Origin: Alistipes sp. | GTDB taxonomy: Bacteria; Bacteroidota; Bacteroidia; Bacteroidales; Rikenellaceae | Length of the DNA stretch: 50,737 bases | Assembly (NCBI GenBank): GCA_017398555.1 | Contig: JAFQFV010000021.1 | Location: forward strand, 1-50,737 | Direction of reading: 5' to 3' | Shown here: positions 6,504 to 34,053 of the stretch, piece by piece | Numbering within the stretch: position 1 is the stretch's first letter | How the letters are laid out: each line of letters opens with the position of its first letter | Position numbers and translations under genes: made by a program | The notes under the pieces: generated by a model | The model's input: only the letters and a program-made list of their open reading frames with translations | The model's database searches: none | Told to the model about the DNA's origin: nothing

Positions 6504-6631
6504 TTTTATCGTCAAAATGCGGTAGATACAACGCTCGGCAAAAAATCCCAGCGATGGATAGTACTAAAGCGTACAGCCATTGCTGGGATTTTTTGCTAGC
6601 GGAAGTAGGTATCCGTATTTTCACGATAAAA
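6504..6631. repeat. Palindromic element, copy 1 (128 bp), at a convergent junction
   Basis: Terminal inverted repeats TTTTATCGTCAAAATGCGG (left, 6504-6522) and, on the other strand, TTTTATCGTGAAAATACGG (right end 6631). A central hairpin pairs 6540-6557 (through CCCAGCGATGG) with 6577-6594 (CCATTGCTGGG, then six Ts). The loop carries GTAC-TAAAGC-GTAC, exactly centred at 6567.5. A-rich and T-rich flanks give a U run in both directions, as in a bidirectional terminator. Its right end enters the 3' end of the RibH-like gene and supplies its last residues and stop codon. The same family recurs at 19391-19602, 26371-26624 and 32433-32605. Confidence 0.85.
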
Positions 6632-7001
6632 CCGATTTGCGATCACCTATGGCATTCGCCTCCTCAGCCATTGTACTCTGCAACTGCACCATCTTTATCA
6701 CGGCTGCGCAATCGAGCGCCGGAGCTACGGTATAGTCGATAGGCATATTCCACTGCATCTGCAGATTAATCAGCGCAGTTGCTATCGGGTCGTTATGCTC
6801 TCTGCCGATAACTATAGTGCAATCTACATCGGTATATTCCGCAAAAAACAGCGCACCCAATGCCAGCTGGAATGGTGGCACATACTTCACAATAATATTC
6901 TCATCCACACAACCGCTCTGCTTGAGGCAGGTGAGTGCAGACCATATATCAAGTCCCTCTTCGGCAACAATACCGATCTTTATCTCCGATGGTGAAATCA
7001 T
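6621..7001 (-). CDS. Degenerate 6,7-dimethyl-8-ribityllumazine synthase homolog
   Basis: A 126-aa protein, against about 155 aa for lumazine synthase. The N-terminal half matches the RibH fold pattern: IKIGIVAEEGLDIWSALTCLKQSG, then ENIIVKYVPPFQLALGALFFAE, equivalent to the family's VPGAFELP segment. The catalytic stretch GxVIRGxTxHFdyV is reduced to VIGREHNDPIATALINL, with the proton-transfer His region lost, and the C-terminus is shortened. Its final codons and TGA stop come from the end of a palindromic repeat. It lies next to a TPR gene and recF, where related Bacteroidetes keep ribH, so ancestry is well supported but lumazine synthase activity is doubtful. A strong hairpin terminator lies between it and the upstream TPR gene. 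It may be a pseudoenzyme or a gene in decay; a functional ribH is probably elsewhere. Confidence 0.65.
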   Translation of the reverse strand: MISPSEIKIGIVAEEGLDIWSALTCLKQSGCVDENIIVKYVPPFQLALGALFFAEYTDVDCTIVIGREHNDPIATALINLQMQWNMPIDYTVAPALDCAAVIKMVQLQSTMAEEANAIGDRKSVLS

Positions 7002-19256: not shown

Positions 19257-19291
19257 AAAAAAAAGAGCCTCACTCGAGGCTCTTTTTTTTT
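19257..19291 (+). terminator. Rho-independent terminator after the coaD-lpxD operon
   Basis: AAAAGAGCCTC, ACTC, GAGGCTCTTTT followed by five or more further Ts. The A run in front also makes it usable in the reverse direction. Confidence 0.92.
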
Positions 19292-19299
19292 GCTATTGG

Positions 19300-19380
19300 C
19301 TCGCCTATGGCGACCCTTCACTGCTCCGCCTCGACATAGTTCAAACAAGTTTGGCTCTGCCCTCGGCTTAATCGCAGCGT
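19300..19380. repeat. GC-rich intergenic repeat, family B, copy 1
   Basis: About 80 bp that begins with the small hairpin TCGCC-TAT-GGCGA, continues with a stretch containing CTCGACATAG and ends near CCCTCGGCTTAATCG. It aligns along its length with 26297-26375, where the first stem is TCGGC-AAA-GCCGA, so the stem differs with pairing kept. It lies directly before degenerate and intact palindromic elements. No coding sense on either strand. Confidence 0.6.
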
Positions 19381-19390
19381 TAGCTTTTCT

Positions 19391-19480
19391 GGTATCCGAT
19401 ATGCGGATAGATATAAGACGTACTACCCTTTGCTGGTTATTTGGGTTAGCGGAAGTAAATGCGTGCTTTTCACGGCAAAT
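19391..19480. repeat. Palindromic element, degenerate copy
   Basis: A decayed member of the palindromic family: a core like GGATAG-ATA...GTAC at 19405-19424, then a right arm TTAGCGGAAGTA and an end TTTTCACGGCAAAT that match copies 1 and 5. The left arm is mostly gone. Its right end overlaps the left end of the intact copy at 19479 by two bases. Confidence 0.55.
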
Positions 19481-19602
19481 TTGTTGTCAAAATGCGGTAG
19501 TAGGTGCATATCGTGAAATATCCCCGGATGGGACATACTCTGCGTATTTCCCATTCGGGGAGTTAAGGGATATGCAGCTAATGCTGCCTTTTCACGGCAA
19601 AT
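19479..19602. repeat. Palindromic element (124 bp) with variant core
   Basis: Left end ATTTGTTGTCAAAATGCGG; right end, on the other strand, ATTTGCCGTGAAAAGG. The central stem CCCCGGATGGG (19522-19532) pairs with CCCATTCGGGG (19550-19560), and an inner ATAC-n5-GTAT replaces the usual GTAC-n5/6-GTAC, with pairing kept. Its last base is the first base of the stop codon of the gene at 19602, so it abuts that gene exactly. Confidence 0.75.
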
Positions 19603-20762
19603 TACTCGTGCTTCACAACAACAGTCTTAAATCCCTTACTATCCTTCACCGAGAACATCACATAAATCTTGCTATCGATGACCTTGATGCCGGCGATATC
19701 GGCATAACCTGCAGGGGTAATCTGCAAAGACTCAAGGAGATACTGGTCAAACACGCACTGGATACGGCGCTTTGGAAGAACGATACGACCTGAGTGGTCA
19801 TAAACGGTGATGAATGCCTTGCTCTCGCCATTCTTCATACTGCCCTTATTATGCTGACCCTCAACGATATAGACATAGTCCTTATCAATATCCCACGCGC
19901 GGAAAGTGTAGTAATTTACCGCCTTTGCTGGGTCTGCAGTCTCCTTATCTGGCTTTGGAATAGTGAATGAACTGATAGATTCAAGGGTTGTCATATCCTT
20001 TGCCTTAATGGTGCGAATAACAGTCTGCTCTGCCTCACCAACAAGCTCGCCCTTATACTGGGTCTTAATCTTCACGTCTGTATTATCGAGTGCACGAGCC
20101 TCGTTAAGGCTATAGATATTTACTGTAAGCTCGCCGGCACGCTGAGTGATAATACCGAGGATATCGGCTGCAGGATTTACTGCAGGGCAGCAATATCTCT
20201 CACCACCCATATAGAAGTTCTCGCCAGCATAACCCTCGTTAATCTCACCATTTGCTTCAAATGGGAAGCGAGATACTGTACGGGTACGGCCATAGGCACC
20301 CTTATACTTTGTGCCGTTACTACCAATCCAGATATAGTCCTTACCATCCTCTCCGTGCTCTACTGCAAGATAGTTTGCATTTCCGAAATAGCGAAGAGTC
20401 ATAGCCTCGCGCTTACCATCGTGACGGCGAACGATATAGTTCTCATGTACCTTTGTAAGGCCCTGCTGGTTCTTACCAATACTACCAGGCTGTGAGAACC
20501 ACATTGTACGCTCATCAGCAGAGATTGAGAAACCCTGAGTTGCGCGGTGTGCAGTCTTCAACGAAACGCCCTTAGTAAGGAACTGTGACTCCTTAGTCAT
20601 CTTTGACATCTTCATCACTGTAAGCAGGCGAGGGTCGGTAATCTTCTCCTTCTTAGCCTTCTCTTTCTTTGCTTTCTGTGCATAGACAGGCGATTGTACA
20701 CCTACAACCAACATTGCTGTCAGAGCAACAACAGCAAAGCTCTTAAATCTGTTCAGTTTCAT
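19602..20762 (-). CDS. Secreted protein, possibly a TagC/helveticin-like beta-propeller
   Basis: A 386-aa exported protein with a signal peptide (about 1-28, ending PVYAQ) and then a Lys/Ala/Glu-rich spacer (KAKKEKAKKEK). The body repeats short segments of the type GFSISADERTMWFSQPG, GKDYIWIGSNGTKYKG and NYYTFRAWDIDKDYVYIVEG, the pattern of beta-propeller blades. The block with LAVEHGEDGKDYIWIG followed by RTVSRFPFE resembles the five-bladed TagC/P68 receptor-binding and helveticin-J families, but I recognise this only by pattern. Two adjacent Cys (ERYCCPAV) sit mid-protein. It is a single-gene unit with its own promoter behind uvrA; the stop codon touches a palindromic repeat. Function unknown. 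Confidence 0.55.
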   Translation of the reverse strand: MKLNRFKSFAVVALTAMLVVGVQSPVYAQKAKKEKAKKEKITDPRLLTVMKMSKMTKESQFLTKGVSLKTAHRATQGFSISADERTMWFSQPGSIGKNQQGLTKVHENYIVRRHDGKREAMTLRYFGNANYLAVEHGEDGKDYIWIGSNGTKYKGAYGRTRTVSRFPFEANGEINEGYAGENFYMGGERYCCPAVNPAADILGIITQRAGELTVNIYSLNEARALDNTDVKIKTQYKGELVGEAEQTVIRTIKAKDMTTLESISSFTIPKPDKETADPAKAVNYYTFRAWDIDKDYVYIVEGQHNKGSMKNGESKAFITVYDHSGRIVLPKRRIQCVFDQYLLESLQITPAGYADIAGIKVIDSKIYVMFSVKDSKGFKTVVVKHE

Positions 20763-26296: not shown

Positions 26297-26375
26297 CTCG
26301 GCAAAGCCGACCTTTCCTCCTTCGCACCTCGGCATAGTCTGCAAGCAGCCTCTGCTCTCGGTTTGGCGTCGGTTG
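26297..26375. repeat. GC-rich intergenic repeat, family B, copy 2
   Basis: Starts with hairpin TCGGC-AAA-GCCGA, then a segment ending CACCTCGGCATAG and a tail near CTCTCGGTTTGGCGTC. It aligns with 19300-19380. The 424-bp gap between 26219 and 26644 consists of this element and two palindromic copies, plus about 75 bp at its start in which I see nothing. Confidence 0.6.
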
Positions 26376-26480
26376 TCAAAAGGTAGTAGTAATTGTGCAT
26401 CGTGCAAAAAAGTAGCGACGGATAGTACTAAAACGTACAGCCGCCGTTGATTTTTAAGGGATGTGCAACGAACTTGTACT
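26371..26480. repeat. Palindromic element, copy 2 (left part intact)
   Basis: Left arm GGTTGTCAAAAGG (start about 26371), hairpin stem AAAAAGTAGCGAC against the GCCGTTGATTTTT side, loop GTAC-TAAAAC-GTAC at 26425-26438. Beyond TTAAGGGATGTGCA the right arm no longer matches the family, so the outer end is truncated or diverged; the end coordinate is approximate. Confidence 0.65.
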
Positions 26481-26499
26481 CCGTTCAATCTTCGCACTC

Positions 26500-26624
26500 A
26501 TTTGTCGTCAAAAGTACGTAGCTGTGATGCATCGTGCAAAAAAGTAGTGGCGGATAGTACAAAACGTACAGCCGCCACTACTTTTTAAGGGATGTGCCGC
26601 AGATGCGTGCTTTTCACGACAAAT
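26500..26624. repeat. Palindromic element, copy 3 (125 bp)
   Basis: Ends ATTTGTCGTCAAAAG and, on the other strand, ATTTGTCGTGAAAAG. The inner stem is AAAAAGTAGTGGCGG against CCGCCACTACTTTTT and the loop GTAC-AAAAC-GTAC at 26557-26569. The stem is perfect although its sequence differs from copies 1 and 4. It ends 20 bp before the stop of the POT transporter gene. Confidence 0.85.
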
Positions 26625-26643: not shown

Positions 26644-28173
26644 CTACTTAGTTGCCGCCTCCAACCTCTTCATCATCACAAACATAAAGAGTGCTGACAG
26701 CAGACAGAGAACGATAAATACTGACCAAACAACAGTCAGTGAGATACCGCCCCAGAGGAAACCACCTACAGATACGAGCCAGTTACCGATTGCTGTTGCA
26801 ACGAACCAGCCACCCATCATAAGACCCTTATACTTTGGAGGTGCTACCTTAGATACGAATGAGATACCCATTGGCGAGAGGAGCAACTCTGCAAATGTAA
26901 GTACGAGGTATGTTGAGATAAGCCAGTTAGGGTTTACAAATGTAACATCAGCACCAGCCTTAAGAGCAGCTTCCTGTGCATCAGGGGTAAGCAAACCTAC
27001 AGATGCAAATGCCATAACAGCGAAACCAACAGCAGCAACGAGCATACCGTAAGCGATCTTACGTGGTGCTGAAGGCTCCTTACCACGACGTGCGAGGCCA
27101 CCGAAGATAGCGAGGCTGACAGGGGTAAGGGCAACTACATAGAATGGGTTGAACTGCTGGAAGATTGGTGCGCTGATAGAGATAGAGCCACTTACGTTGA
27201 GTGCCTTATAAACCAACACTGCGATAACAGCTACCAGCACTGCAAGTGAAGCGAACTTACCCTTCTTTGTCTCGCTTTGGAATACAGAGAAACCTGCATA
27301 TACACCGATGATAACAAGAACGAGGTTCCATACATTAAACAGCATACTCTGCAGACCCTCAGAGCTCTTTGCAGTGAACTCGTCAGCAAAGTAAGTAAGA
27401 GTAAGACCGTTCTGGTGGAATGCCATCCAGAAGAAGATTACAACGGCAAATACGAGGCACAGAGCCACAACTCTCTGCTTTGTCTCTGCAGGAGAGAGCT
27501 CCTCTGTAGCCACTGCAGCAGCATCGCCCTTCTTTGTCTTACCACCCTCAACGTGACGGAATGTAGGACGGAAGATGTAGTAGATAGCAATTGAGAGGAT
27601 GAGTGATGCGCAAGCCACTGCGAAAGAGAAGTGGTAAGCATCGTTTCCTGAGTAACCGAGGCTAAACTCTGCCCACTCCTTAATCTTCACGGCTGCAGTA
27701 GGTGCAAACAGAGCACCGATATTGATAGCCATATAGAAGAGAGAGAAGCCTGAATCACGCTTTGCAGCGTACTGTGGATCGTTGTACAAATCACCAACCA
27801 TTACCTGCAGGTTACCCTTAAACAGACCTGTACCAAGGCTGATAAAGAGCAGTGCTGCGAGCATTGCAAGCATTGCGAAGGTATCACCACCTAAAGGCAA
27901 TGAGAGAAGCAGATAACCAACAAACATAATGGTAATACCGATGGTTACCATCTTACCGAAACCGAACTTATCTGCCATCATACCACCAACGAGCGGCATA
28001 AGGTAAACAAGGCCGAGGAATGTTGAGTAGATAGCGCCCGCTACACCTGCATCGAGGCCGAAGTTTGCACGAAGGAAGAGTGCAAAGACTGCCAACATTG
28101 TGTAGTAACCGAAACGCTCGCCGGTGTTAGCCAGCGCAAGGGCGTAGAGTCCTTTTGGATGTCCTTTGAACAT
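26644..28173 (-). CDS. POT/PTR-family peptide:H+ symporter
   Basis: A 509-aa transporter with 12 or more hydrophobic helices. The N-terminal NTGERFGYYTMLAVFALFL carries the family's ExxERFxYY-type proton-coupling motif (about 17-25), and GLVYLMPLVGGMMADKFGFGKMV (about 54-76) is the loop 2-3 signature. The long central cytoplasmic insert at about 200-230 (ending EELSPAETKQ) is the site of extra helices in bacterial POTs. Members import di- and tripeptides. Codon bias suggests high expression. It has a strong promoter and is probably monocistronic. Substrate range cannot be judged. Confidence 0.92.
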   Translation of the reverse strand: MFKGHPKGLYALALANTGERFGYYTMLAVFALFLRANFGLDAGVAGAIYSTFLGLVYLMPLVGGMMADKFGFGKMVTIGITIMFVGYLLLSLPLGGDTFAMLAMLAALLFISLGTGLFKGNLQVMVGDLYNDPQYAAKRDSGFSLFYMAINIGALFAPTAAVKIKEWAEFSLGYSGNDAYHFSFAVACASLILSIAIYYIFRPTFRHVEGGKTKKGDAAAVATEELSPAETKQRVVALCLVFAVVIFFWMAFHQNGLTLTYFADEFTAKSSEGLQSMLFNVWNLVLVIIGVYAGFSVFQSETKKGKFASLAVLVAVIAVLVYKALNVSGSISISAPIFQQFNPFYVVALTPVSLAIFGGLARRGKEPSAPRKIAYGMLVAAVGFAVMAFASVGLLTPDAQEAALKAGADVTFVNPNWLISTYLVLTFAELLLSPMGISFVSKVAPPKYKGLMMGGWFVATAIGNWLVSVGGFLWGGISLTVVWSVFIVLCLLSALFMFVMMKRLEAATK

Positions 28174-30326: not shown

Positions 30327-31145
30327 CTAATCATTGAGTTGTGATTCCAACGCCTTGCGATCTTTTGACTCTAAGCTATCTGTTACCCATATAGCTATAC
30401 CACCTAAGGTCTCATTTATACCACAGAAGTCACGGCTAAGCTCCACGCCCTGCTTAATGGTCTTATCCCTCTTCTTCTCATCCTTAAGAGCGCCACTATT
30501 AATCGCCTTAACGAAGTCGCTCCACTCTTTATTGCTTGGGTTGTATATACTGTATGGTATCTTATATTTGTATATCAAATCATTGATTAGCCACAACATA
30601 TTCCACGCATCATTATCCGTGCGTACCAATCCACCAATTAGTGGGGTATCGGGATTAAGGCAGCTGCGACCACCCACATTGTCTAATAGCGAGTCATATT
30701 TACTCGCTGAGAGAACCTTTAGGATTTCGTTATAATAGCTCCTTGCTTTTTCGAGTGTTCCTGCCTTGGAGTAGTCCATAAACATAATCAGCATTGGCCA
30801 TATTGTTACAGCGACGGCAATGGTCATCTTCCACCAAACATTTTGCGGGCCAAATATCCATGGGAACGCCACTACTATACCGACATATACATAGACCATT
30901 GTACCGATAGAGGCCAATCTGATGAGGGTAGCCTTTTTGTCATCGTGAAGAATCTTCTTCCAGCTGTTATAAAACTCCGAGCTCTTTTTAGGTGTTCGAC
31001 ACACGCTATAGTGCATCGCAAAGAGCACCAAACAGAGAAGTACTCCTATAAAAATTGCAGTTCCCCATCCGCCAAACATACCCTTTGTGTAGAGAATAAA
31101 GGCTACTGCAAGTAGTAGATCTATAATCGCACCAACAATCAGCAT
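30327..31145 (-). CDS. Four-helix membrane protein of unknown family, paralog 2
   Basis: A 272-aa protein with the same build as its neighbour at 29270: helices at about 2-20, 26-47, 78-97 and 104-126, and a C-terminal soluble domain. Shared blocks are CRTPKKSSEFYNSW (about 50-63), VWWKMTIAVAVTIWPM, LNPDTPLIGGLV, DAWN, and ETLGGIAIWVTDSLES near the end. Identity to paralog 1 is only moderate by eye, lower than the 83-88% DNA identity of the flanking duplicated remnants. Family not recognised. It is divergent from the TspO-SOD gene, with facing promoters. The gene that should follow it, a patatin, has been deleted to a stub. Confidence 0.6.
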   Translation of the reverse strand: MLIVGAIIDLLLAVAFILYTKGMFGGWGTAIFIGVLLCLVLFAMHYSVCRTPKKSSEFYNSWKKILHDDKKATLIRLASIGTMVYVYVGIVVAFPWIFGPQNVWWKMTIAVAVTIWPMLIMFMDYSKAGTLEKARSYYNEILKVLSASKYDSLLDNVGGRSCLNPDTPLIGGLVRTDNDAWNMLWLINDLIYKYKIPYSIYNPSNKEWSDFVKAINSGALKDEKKRDKTIKQGVELSRDFCGINETLGGIAIWVTDSLESKDRKALESQLND

Positions 31146-31173
31146 TGTCTTATCTATTTGTAAATATTTATTA

Positions 31174-31205
31174 CAAAATTAACGAAATTTATTTGACTCT
31201 ACAAA
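31174..31205 (-). promoter_or_regulatory. Promoter of paralog 2
   Basis: Minus strand: -33 TTTG (31202-31205), 20-bp spacer, -7 TAATTTTG (31174-31181). It overlaps the opposite promoter of the TspO-SOD gene. Confidence 0.7.
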
Positions 31206-31224
31206 CAGAGAGGCACTCTATTTG
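31192..31224 (+). promoter_or_regulatory. Promoter of the tspO-sod fusion gene
   Basis: -33 TTTG at 31192-31195, 21-bp spacer, -7 TCTATTTG at 31217-31224 (one mismatch). The two divergent promoters interleave, so polymerase on one may exclude the other. Confidence 0.6.
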
Positions 31225-31258
31225 CACAAGTGGCTACAAAAAATCAAAACTTACACTT

Positions 31259-32359
31259 ATGATGAAAAAGATTCTCGCCTATACCGTTCCCGTGCTGCTA
31301 TGCCTTGCTATCGGAGCCATAGGCTCGTATATTCAGACGCCCGCCATCAGAGTATGGTACCCCACACTTGTAAAGTCGCCACTTACGCCCCCTGCAATAG
31401 TTTTTCCGATAGCGTGGACGATTCTATATATTATGATAGGTCTGAGTATCGGCAGGCTTATTGCCATTGGAGATATGTCGATTGTAAGGCTCTGGATATT
31501 TCAGCTATTGGTGAATTTTCTATGGATTATAGCCTTCTTTGCACTTCGCTCGCCAATTTTGGGTCTGATAACGATACTTATTCTCGATGTGCTCGTCTTT
31601 GCTTATACAATCTACGCATTTAGCAGCGACCACATTGCAGGTTGGCTCTTTGTGCCATATATGCTATGGCTAATCTTTGCCACCTACCTGACGGGATATA
31701 TATACCTCAACAATACATCCACTGCCACCCTCAGCGCAGCAAACAGAGTTGATAAGGTCATTGCCACCGAGAGTAAGACCACCTACCTCGATATGCCGAC
31801 TCTCCCCTACTCCACCGACGCTTTTGAGCCAACGCTGAGTCAGGAGAGCTTTGACTACCACTACGGCAAGCATCTTAAGGGGTATGTAGATAACCTCAAC
31901 CGCCTGATTGTCGGCACCCCATACGAAGGGATGAGGCTTGAAGATGTCGTACAGCAGGCTGACGGCGCACTATTTAACAACGCTGCACAGGTTCTCAACC
32001 ACGAACTATTCTTTGAGAACATAACTCCATATATGGTCGATATCCCGCCACGACTACGCAGCGCCATAATCCGCGACTTTGGTAGCATAGAGCAGTTCAA
32101 AAAGGAGTTTTCGTCAGCCGCAACCTCGCTCTTTGGTTCAGGGTGGGTGTGGTTGGTAGAGGATAGAGAGGGAAAACTATCAATCCTTACCACCACAAAT
32201 GCCAATACACCTATAACACAAGGGCTTAACCCTATACTTGTGCTCGATGTGTGGGAACACGCCTACTATATCGACTACCGTAATCGCCGCGCCGACTTTG
32301 TCAAACAGTGGTGGGATATCGTCGATTGGCCCCGCGCCAACAGCAGACTAAAGCAATAA
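31259..32359 (+). CDS. TspO/MBR - iron/manganese superoxide dismutase fusion protein
   Basis: One uninterrupted 366-aa frame with two known domains. Residues 1-150 are a TspO/MBR protein with five helices: WYPTLVKSPLTPPAIVFPIAWTILY at about 33-57, VNFLWIIAFFALRSP at about 85-99 and PYMLWLIFATYLTGYIYLNN at about 133-152 are the family signatures; TspO binds porphyrins and sterols. After a linker (about 153-177), residues 178-366 form a complete Fe/Mn SOD starting MPTLPYSTDAF. Metal ligands H201, H248, D330 and H334 are all present (HYGKH, LNHEL, DVWEHAYYIDY), as are the active-site Tyr209 and Gln244, the latter as in Fe-type enzymes. The ATG at 31259 gives a 30-nt leader. It would place superoxide removal at a membrane; which side is unknown. 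It has no shared operon. Confidence 0.92.
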   Translation: MMKKILAYTVPVLLCLAIGAIGSYIQTPAIRVWYPTLVKSPLTPPAIVFPIAWTILYIMIGLSIGRLIAIGDMSIVRLWIFQLLVNFLWIIAFFALRSPILGLITILILDVLVFAYTIYAFSSDHIAGWLFVPYMLWLIFATYLTGYIYLNNTSTATLSAANRVDKVIATESKTTYLDMPTLPYSTDAFEPTLSQESFDYHYGKHLKGYVDNLNRLIVGTPYEGMRLEDVVQQADGALFNNAAQVLNHELFFENITPYMVDIPPRLRSAIIRDFGSIEQFKKEFSSAATSLFGSGWVWLVEDREGKLSILTTTNANTPITQGLNPILVLDVWEHAYYIDYRNRRADFVKQWWDIVDWPRANSRLKQ

Positions 32360-32432: not shown

Positions 32433-32474
32433 CTCTTAAAGGCTAACAGCTAATGCTGCCTTTTCACGGCAAAT
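32433..32474. repeat. Palindromic element, right-arm fragment
   Basis: TTAAAGG, then AGCTAATGCTGCCTTTTCACGG and the CAAAT end match the right arm of the element at 19479-19602. The left half is missing. It is followed five bases later by the intact copy 4. Confidence 0.6.
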
Positions 32475-32478
32475 GCCA

Positions 32479-32605
32479 TTTTATCGTCAGAACGCGGTAG
32501 ATGCCACGCTCGGCAAAAAATCCGACAATGGATAGTACTAAAGCGTACAGCCATTGTCGGATTTTTTTGTTAGCGGAAATAGATATCCGCGTTATCACGA
32601 TAAAA
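32479..32605. repeat. Palindromic element, copy 4 (127 bp)
   Basis: Left end TTTTATCGTCAGAACGCGG; right end, on the other strand, TTTTATCGTGATAACGCGG. The inner stem AAAAAATCCGACAATGG pairs with CCATTGTCGGATTTTTT. The loop GTAC-TAAAGC-GTAC (32535-32548) is identical to copy 1 while the stem differs at paired positions. It ends five bases before the stop of the OPA transporter gene. Confidence 0.88.
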
Positions 32606-32610
32606 TAAAA

Positions 32611-34053
32611 TTACTCTTCGTATCCATTCGCCGGTGCATTCCACATAGTCAGCAGAGTAATTACAGCGAGGATAGCCATAATAAGGATTGTCAGATATGC
32701 GCCATTCCAACCGTAGTGCTGTGCGACATAACCGAAACCTACGCCTGAGATAAGAGTAGAGGCGTAACCAAAGATACCCAAGATACCGTTTGCAGTAGCT
32801 GCAGCGCGGTTTGTTGCCTGGTTTGCAGCAGAGATACCGAGAAGTGCCTGTGGGCCATAGACAAAGAAGCCTATGAAGGTAAATGGCAGCATCTGAATCC
32901 ACCAAGCAGAGCCCTCAGGAATCATCCAGAATATAGCCACACTAAGTGCTGCACCAACCATACAGAGCACGCAGGTACGGTGAGCCTTACTATTAAAGAA
33001 CTTATCTGTAAGCCAGCCCCAGAAGACCATACCTATATTACCACCGATAAACTCAAAGACGATACAAAGGGTTGTTGCCATAGCCAATGTCAGACCCTTA
33101 GACTCAGTAAGCATAGTTGGGCCCCAATCGAGGGCAGCAAAGCGAACTACATAGACAAAGAAGTTTGTAAGACCCAGAGTCCAAATCAGGCGATTACCGA
33201 ATACCTTACGGCGTACAAATGCGTTATACTCAGCCTTCTCAGCAGCAGTCTGAACGCTCTGAGCCTTCTTCTCAACAACCTCCGGAAGACCCACCTCAGA
33301 TGGGGAGTTCTTAATCAGAGTGATGATACCAAGTGAGCCCAACAATGCAAATGCAGCCGGGATAAGGAAGCACAGACGCCAAGCGCCGAAGTGCTGTGAG
33401 AAGTTCAAAATCTCCTCGTATGATGCATTTGCGCCGAGGTTTGTTGTGATAGTCTGAACAACCTCTGCATTTGCGCTCATATCCAGACCAAGGTGTGGCA
33501 TAATAACCCAACCGCAAAGGCCAAACACAAGACCTGCACCGATAGAGTGCGACATATTCCATACCGACATCTTTGTTGCCAGCTGGTCAGGGTGAATCCA
33601 CTGTGTCATAATCTTTGTAAATGGCGGCACACCCATACCCTGCAGGTAGCCGTTGATTACCCATACAATACCCATGCAGTAGATGAGTACTGAAGAGAAT
33701 GTGAGCGTTGTGCCCATCTTGGCAGCCAAAACGACAATCCAATTTGCGACAAAGTCACTCACACCAAAGATGATATTTGCCACAGCGCAGAGCAGCAGAC
33801 CTACAGAGGCTACAACCTTTGCACTACCACGATCCGAAATGATACCGTTTACAAAACGAGACAGGCCGTAGATAATGCCGTGCAGGGTAAGGAAAAGACC
33901 CAACGACACCTTTGAGATGCCAAACTCGGCTGTAAGGCCCGGCATGGCAATAGAGAAGTTCTTACGAACAAAGTAGAACAGAGCATAACCCACCATAGTG
34001 TAGATAATGGTGCGTATCTGCCAATTGTTAAACGAACGAGTTGAAGTATTCAT
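32611..34053 (-). CDS. OPA-family organophosphate:phosphate antiporter (GlpT/UhpC-like)
   Basis: A 480-aa major facilitator with 12 helices. The N-terminal YALFYFVRKNFSIAMPGL (about 22-39) carries the Arg of the OPA family's phosphate-binding region, and GLSRFVNGIISDRG (about 63-76) is the loop 2-3 motif. OPA members exchange inorganic phosphate for glycerol-3-phosphate, hexose-6-phosphates or other sugar phosphates. It follows the genes for G1P dehydrogenase and AraD, which suggests import of a small polyol or pentose phosphate. An intergenic hairpin (34098-34119) precedes it. Codon use is that of a well-expressed gene. Substrate unproven. Confidence 0.88.
   Translation of the reverse strand: MNTSTRSFNNWQIRTIIYTMVGYALFYFVRKNFSIAMPGLTAEFGISKVSLGLFLTLHGIIYGLSRFVNGIISDRGSAKVVASVGLLLCAVANIIFGVSDFVANWIVVLAAKMGTTLTFSSVLIYCMGIVWVINGYLQGMGVPPFTKIMTQWIHPDQLATKMSVWNMSHSIGAGLVFGLCGWVIMPHLGLDMSANAEVVQTITTNLGANASYEEILNFSQHFGAWRLCFLIPAAFALLGSLGIITLIKNSPSEVGLPEVVEKKAQSVQTAAEKAEYNAFVRRKVFGNRLIWTLGLTNFFVYVVRFAALDWGPTMLTESKGLTLAMATTLCIVFEFIGGNIGMVFWGWLTDKFFNSKAHRTCVLCMVGAALSVAIFWMIPEGSAWWIQMLPFTFIGFFVYGPQALLGISAANQATNRAAATANGILGIFGYASTLISGVGFGYVAQHYGWNGAYLTILIMAILAVITLLTMWNAPANGYEE

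Follow-up and report, generated by a model that had tools for sequence, protein, structure and literature searches.

Strand-polar palindromic elements of about 125 nt at gene ends in Alistipes and other bacteria

Elements in the window

In the window, meaning the whole 50,737-nt stretch of DNA analysed here, a covariance model (R1) matched five places, every one best on the plus strand. The complete element at 6504..6631 (plus, here the folded strand described below; 114.1 bits) has arms TTTTATCG/CGATAAAA and an inner stem CCCAGCGAT/ATTGCTGGG, and a minus-strand gene (an open reading frame at 6621..7001) has its TGA stop inside one arm. At 19479..19602 (plus, 80.0 bits) lies a complete element with the variant core ATAC..GTAT, at an offset of -1: its final base overlaps the TAA stop of a minus-strand gene at 19602..20762 (386 aa, no Pfam match). 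Another complete element, at 26500..26624 (plus, 119.2 bits), is found 19 nt past the stop codon of a PTR2/POT transporter gene (26644..28173, minus) and in tandem with a degenerate part copy with a poorly paired stem (26368..26497, plus, 49.6 bits). The complete element at 32479..32605 (plus, 109.2 bits) is 5 nt past the stop codon of an MFS transporter gene (32611..34053, minus). Beside it is a relic, the 3' arm of an older element (32447..32474, plus), with 100% identity to 19575-19602. The core GTAC-n-GTACAGCC occurred four times in the window, compared with 0.02 occurrences expected from shuffles. Inner stems of the window copies are bordered by A-runs and T-runs, so that a stem followed by a T-run is present on both strands.

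The initial annotation, made from sequence alone, had described three complete copies (6504-6631, 26500-26624, and 32479-32605) and a variant copy with paired ATAC/GTAT at 19479-19602, all of which are real. Its account of covarying arms and outer ends also held. The part copy that it placed near 26371 exists at 26368-26497, but its arms fail to pair cleanly, with AGTAGCGAC facing GCCGTTGAT and a score of just 50 bits. The core it called invariant covaries across the family (ATAC/GTAT, GTAG/CTAC, and GGG[2 nt]GTAC..GTAC[2 nt]CCC).

Several other features were observed in the window. By eye, 19404-19480 resembles a decayed extra copy arranged as a tandem neighbor of the 19479-19602 element, although no covariance model match was obtained there. 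Positions 19289-19420 and 26314-26374 are parts of other dispersed repeat families, with many matches in relatives for the former and at least one for the latter. A single open reading frame at 31145-32359 carries a TspO/MBR domain (residues 50-188) and an Fe/Mn superoxide dismutase (216-401), a possible unusual fusion; only its first part aligned well in four of five loci from relatives, and nearly all of it did in the fifth (L214). Direct repeat pairs at 29173-29258/30240-30325 (90%) and 30111-30164/31172-31225 (83%) surround two neighboring minus-strand genes, which suggests a gene duplicated with its upstream region.

Abundance and distribution

A longer form of the core was present 57 times in the window's own Alistipes-type genome, whereas a reversed control pattern was absent. 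Of 200 genomes sampled from the family Rikenellaceae, 50 contained the exact core, with up to 76 copies per genome, and the carriers fell into 2 of 22 genera. Searching the genome and its relatives for the core, as the initial annotation had proposed, revealed a family larger than it had reported. With the covariance model, which was built from 46 relatives, we identified 64 places in 431 kb of own sequence chosen mostly for exact cores, reduced from 107 matches by keeping the better strand per place. Some loci were the same DNA under two records, and identical elements were removed before counting. Per-genome model counts scored at most 150 candidates and included both strands, and are not clean copy numbers. 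One genome picked as being without the exact core (G102) had 65 model matches; hence, the set of genomes without the core, used below in a comparison of reverse transcriptases, is not wholly free of elements.

A scan of species genomes returned mainly Alistipes and Rikenellaceae among the matches listed, many of them from ruminant guts. Other carriers among the matches listed, identified by their record titles, were Desulfovibrio, Humidesulfovibrio, Desulfovibrionales, two less precisely titled Proteobacteria, Chitinophagaceae, and Spirochaetes contigs. What we call the Desulfovibrionales-type group takes in two carrier genomes labelled only as Proteobacteria or Deltaproteobacteria. Nine genomes from which ten such loci came had 1 to 6 copies each. 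The core sat on a paired stem within an outer rod in the folds examined, except that of G207, whose single copy is stemless, looks like a chance occurrence, and was set aside. A phage origin of the family was also rejected, as a viral collection of 2.9 million contigs (by its own description) contained just one match.

No Rfam family matched the window at gathering score. Across 13 element loci, Rfam matches over the elements were all sub-threshold, the best (E = 0.089) being to a hairpin microRNA family. No description of the element family was found by title or abstract opening in the open literature searched.

Structure and the folded strand

The strand reading GGATAGTAC..GTACAGCC can fold into a long rod interrupted by a mismatch bubble and capped by an apical hairpin, and the apical motif is common to several phyla. 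In 46 aligned copies, 97.3% of cells were paired and 29 of 39 pairs had two-sided changes. Every covariation measure exceeded all 500 shuffles and all slid versions, although the tested structure was derived from the same 46-copy alignment, which favors the pairing score. This result supports the earlier proposal of selection on a hairpin. Helix 1, formed by the outer ends, had two-sided changes in 6 of 9 pairs, meaning that the ends covary rather than being fixed. The apical helix covaries too, taking ATAC/GTAT and GTAG/CTAC forms. Two asymmetric bubbles, GGATA/AGCC and GTCAGA/TATCAC, are conserved.

The two strands differ in how well they fold. The consensus fold of the GGATAGTAC..GTACAGCC strand had an energy of -56.4 kcal/mol with 39 pairs (46 copies), and that of the complement had -28.9 kcal/mol with 30 pairs (50 copies, including those 46). 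Departures from pairing in the complement alignment were C.A or A.C in 41 cells versus G.U in 5 (manual tally), and the same cells are wobble pairs on the GGATAGTAC..GTACAGCC strand. Another alignment, A3, contains both strand readings for many places. In single-sequence folds of 122 Alistipes copies, there were 537 G.U pairs on the folded strand and 75 on the complement. The GGATAGTAC..GTACAGCC strand was more stable in 116 of 122 Alistipes, 16 of 17 Desulfovibrionales-type, 5 of 5 Chitinophagaceae, and 3 of 3 Spirochaetaceae copies, as well as 4 of 4 from G208, an Alistipes record. DNA energy parameters gave the same direction (119/122, 17/17, 5/5, 3/3, and 4/4, respectively); therefore, folding does not tell RNA and single-stranded DNA apart. 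Leading strands accumulate an excess of C-to-T changes, which would place G.U on the other strand, and we rejected strand mutation bias as the cause of the asymmetry. Retention of G.U pairs and greater stability on one strand imply that the fold of the GGATAGTAC..GTACAGCC strand is what matters: this one strand is kept able to fold.

Two minus-strand copies (L132 and L135) have a core that is inverted relative to the outer arms, like a flipped inner palindrome. We considered a promoter on the folded-strand side and set it aside, as the column signal was weak. Shared 5' flanks of about 30-440 bp resemble mosaics of other repeats and were excluded from the element.

Position at gene ends

Read on the opposite strand, as GGCTGTAC..GTACTATCC, the element comes after a gene. 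In Alistipes-type genomes, the folded strand usually has its 3' end right against the complement of a stop codon, which belongs to a gene on the other strand. Among 152 distinct copies, 25 at an edge and 9 inside small open reading frames were left unscored. A gene abutted in this orientation in 109 of the 118 scorable copies (66 in convergent gaps and 43 in co-directional gaps) and in the opposite orientation in 9, with orientation counted from crude open reading frame calls. In the background, 110 gaps were co-directional, 67 divergent, and 23 convergent. A stop codon preceded the core by 48-62 nt in 86 of 140 copies. In 60 of 86 stop-element pairs, a set in which one element (L114) is counted twice, the element began at an offset of -1 to +3 nt relative to the stop codon end. 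The stop was TAA in 70 of 95 cases versus 389 of 914 in the background, and a G preceded the stop in 53 of 95 versus 272 of 914, although this background is crude and includes spurious open reading frames.

All 11 scored copies of the Desulfovibrionales type followed a TAG stop, 9 of them directly, where TAG made up 46 of 101 background stops. Unfiltered open reading frames had placed gene ends on both sides of Desulfovibrionales-type copies, but a third-codon-position filter scored none on the far side and the idea was dropped. In a Spirochaetaceae genome, two of three copies followed stop codons located 45 and 47 nt from the core. The gene was on the other side in both scorable copies, out of five, from Chitinophagaceae. 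In G208, the two loci tested lie directly 3' of 5S rRNA; these copies (L148 and L157), downstream of 5S rRNA genes, have longer outer stems.

Ten recurrent or typical abutting genes were compared with NCBIfam, and eight had matches, of valS, phosphosugar mutase, lpxA, CdsZ, gapA, rplQ, ileS, and secDF types, several of them fragments below the curated cut-off. The other two had no NCBIfam match. Stop-codon position, strand asymmetry, and the replication polarity described next were absent from the initial annotation.

Replication polarity

In the own genome, 57 of 64 places had the element pointing the way that the GC-skew sign predicts, in a set that includes tandem copies, weak matches, and stretches chosen for exact cores. 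When contigs were divided post hoc, eight of them agreed at 51 of 53 places, and the remaining three (C3, C5, and C11) at 6 of 11. Transcription-unit ends on the same contigs were spread across both strands, for example 10:5 against the element direction on C33, which implies that gene strand alone does not explain the orientation. The G-rich strand is usually the leading strand. If G-rich means leading here, the gene that abuts the element is a leading-strand gene.

Neighboring copies had the same orientation in 58 of 69 comparisons across the seven genomes in which a contig had two or more usable copies. These comparisons used listed exact-core places, left out close tandem copies, and yielded no pair in two of nine genomes. 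Agreement was poorest in G095 (9:4, with 4 of 13 opposite) and G130 (2:3, with 3 of 5 opposite). Of 94 single 8-kb loci from other genomes, 70 had the expected skew sign. However, just 26 of the 44 such loci with other genes mostly on the folded strand had the expected sign, and the separation of skew from gene strand is therefore weaker outside the own genome.

Turnover at orthologous sites

We asked what occupies the ends of orthologous genes in related genomes. The MFS gene ending at 32611 is followed by an element in four of its five closest full orthologues (own included), and all four are different variants, one of them with an ATAC core. The orthologue in G165 has an ordinary terminator in place of the element. 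In the more distant MFS orthologues shown, no element was seen by eye within 200 nt past the stop. Four close orthologues without an element had ordinary terminators, as judged by eye. In three genomes (G153, G156, and G220), the counterpart of the gene ending at 19602 is followed by nearly the same element, an inherited occupant.

Gene ends are shared as sites more often than chance would predict. Nine of 18 G165 copies were at gene ends also occupied among 48 own copies, compared with a random expectation of about 0.5 match, an estimate assuming approximately 1,800 genes. The paired elements had identities of 0.67-0.81, with one exception at 0.97, and random pairs averaged 0.73 (sd 0.05). 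In one G165/own pair, the gene ends were 98% identical and the elements 0.80. Both flanks aligned at 4 of 10 paired sites. Over 33 orthologous site pairs, which share sites and are not independent, body identity was 0.72 versus 0.70 for random pairs. At most orthologous sites compared, the alignments show occupants that are no more alike than random copies. One element thus seems to be replaced by another more quickly than the adjoining genes diverge. Occupants of two pairs (L266/L234, 0.97, and L080/L146, 0.96) look inherited. Single pairs had suggested that inner parts are exchanged while arms are retained, and this did not prove general across orthologous pairs.

Recent near-identical copies were present at different loci in G165, and in some places a short arm relic of approximately 8-20 nt separates the stop codon from the element now there. 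The suggestion in the initial annotation that the family spreads as a repeat element gains support from the many copies per genome and the turnover at orthologous sites. Movement would explain this change of occupants across species, which is a comparison between species rather than between a filled and an empty site from one species.

At three G165 loci (L257, L263, and L273), runs of 11-nt units like CACGACAAAAT between element and gene are copies of different element ends. A tandem array of five shortened elements with a period of about 108 bp was observed at L276 (G153:C16:11600-13800).

Mechanism and alternative explanations

Two kinds of enzyme were considered as mobilizers. The initial annotation had guessed at a Rep-type transposase, which for the Y1 kind was not borne out: PF01797 was found neither in the own genome nor in any of the 10 other high-copy Alistipes tested. 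It occurred in 2 of 31 genomes overall, one of which is a carrier outside Alistipes (G201). Reverse transcriptase (PF00078) was absent from the own genome, which is 89% complete; 9 of the 15 other high-copy Alistipes lacked it too, and it was present in 7 of 15 genomes without the exact core, all of these genomes being incomplete. Neither enzyme was associated with the element, and both were rejected as mobilizers. A scan for long arm pairs, which a long autonomous version would show if it carried an open reading frame between the same arms, gave no recurrent spacing. At the boundaries of filled sites that were read, no target duplication was evident by eye.

Our preferred reading, to which we give an even chance, is that the family consists of non-autonomous mobile elements of about 125 nt that enter the 3' ends of leading-strand genes via a folded single strand and are tolerated there. 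Copies would spread through a folded single-stranded intermediate, more likely RNA than single-stranded DNA, that may be copied or joined onto a strand ending at the stop codon, such as the nascent leading strand. The putative enzymes would act in trans. Insertions of the IS200 type are expected to enter the lagging-strand template. Here, the folded strand is the leading-strand template and the sense strand ends at the stop, an arrangement that RNA copying onto the nascent leading strand fits better than IS200-type insertion does. Such insertions would be tolerated downstream of the coding sequence, and the inner hairpin, which resembles an intrinsic terminator in both directions, may be the reason. 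If the elements are mobile, they point to an undescribed way to insert nucleic acid at gene ends.

A more specific proposal is a SINE-like system in which a 125-nt rod RNA, antisense to the gene, pairs through its 3' end with the stop codon and is copied onto the nascent leading strand. We regard this version as speculative, with perhaps one chance in several of being correct. If it were true, gene ends would be fixed docking sites that cycle a fast-evolving pool of RNAs in several phyla.

Alternatively, the elements might be immobile host terminators, which selection maintains at operon ends for intrinsic termination in both directions. Recurrent sites after core genes (valS, ileS, gapA, rplQ, secDF, and lpxA types) and, in one genome, after 5S rRNA are consistent with this explanation, as are the A-run and T-run flanks of the inner stem and the ordinary terminators seen by eye in the four close orthologues lacking an element. 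However, the element folds less well on the strand of the abutting gene's mRNA, an argument against a pure terminator role. Terminators would also not be expected to share an apical motif between different phyla, to be near-identical at separate G165 loci, or to have changing occupants. We consider this explanation unlikely. If the elements are indeed not mobile, they would be an undescribed kind of element at the gene ends of core operons, with rapid exchange between loci.

Somewhat more doubtful is the possibility that the copies are single-stranded DNA hairpins moved by a Y1 enzyme (RAYT), like REP/REPIN, or folded single-stranded DNA sites moved by a recombinase, like attC. A hairpin with an internal mismatch, one active strand, and replication polarity all speak for it. 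Yet the enzyme search, which was for the Y1 kind, detected no PF01797 in the own genome or the 10 other high-copy Alistipes, and the folded strand is the leading-strand template rather than the lagging-strand template expected for IS200-type elements. Moreover, host genes appear to stay put, as both flanks align at those 4 of 10 paired sites. Placement after stop codons is known for some REPs in the passages of PMC12306157 compared.

A DNA-transposon MITE, with inverted-repeat ends bound by a transposase in trans, would account for the size, terminal inverted repeats, copy number, and abutting tandem copies. We think it very unlikely given that the ends covary (helix 1, 6 of 9 two-sided) and yet the middle is common to phyla, one strand is favored, no target duplication was evident by eye at the boundaries read, and the arm-pair scan found no recurrent spacing. 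Least probable of all is that quasi-palindrome correction by template switching, to which long palindromes are prone, keeps the arms complementary with neither selection nor mobility: it suits perfect-arm copies with diverse stems, but would erase the conserved asymmetric bubbles (GGATA/AGCC and GTCAGA/TATCAC) and cannot favor G.U over A.C on one strand, an asymmetry that largely refutes it.

Comparison with known systems

Several known systems share part of the features of the preferred mobile element. Integron attC sites fold on the bottom strand relative to the gene, lie at the gene 3' end, and have variable stems. The elements are like them in these three respects, but their host genes appear to stay in place. 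Group II introns and SINE-like RNA elements insert with polarity relative to replication, and the elements likewise have a structured, RNA-like strand and replication-related polarity; unlike these, no reverse transcriptase domain was found in the own genome (89% complete) or in 9 of 15 other high-copy Alistipes. With Rho-independent terminators, the elements share an inner GC stem with an A-run and a T-run and a location at gene or operon ends, and they differ in having an extra outer rod, a conserved apical bubble, and better folding opposite the mRNA. They depart from the usual inverted-repeat transposon in that their ends covary and a single strand is the one that folds.

Sequence, together with a link to a transposase, is the usual basis for defining small palindromic repeats, whereas here the structure is kept and the sequence is free. 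Wobble pairs show which strand folds, and the placement of copies follows both stop codons and the direction of replication. REP and REPIN are dispersed palindromes with an internal mismatch. The elements are similarly dispersed mismatch palindromes that are intergenic, close to stop codons, and polar, but they form a rod of about 125 nt with covarying arms, and no Y1 gene was found in the own or 10 other high-copy genomes. Some REPs are located within 20 nt of a stop codon, according to the part of PMC12306157 consulted.

ERIC (RU-1), YPAL (RU-2), RUP, and RPE are non-autonomous, palindromic, about 100-170 nt long, and transcribed as hairpins, in the sections of PMC2229807 consulted. The same sections describe orientation-dependent effects of ERIC, TA termini in several of these families, and target duplications of varying size for YPAL (PMC2229807). 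The elements match these families in size and palindromic hairpin form, but differ from their description there in varying sequence while keeping structure, as well as in stop-codon position, GC-skew polarity, and presence in several phyla. This set of features was absent from the passages compared, and the best reading is of an element similar in kind to REP, ERIC, and YPAL but unusual in its polarity and turnover.
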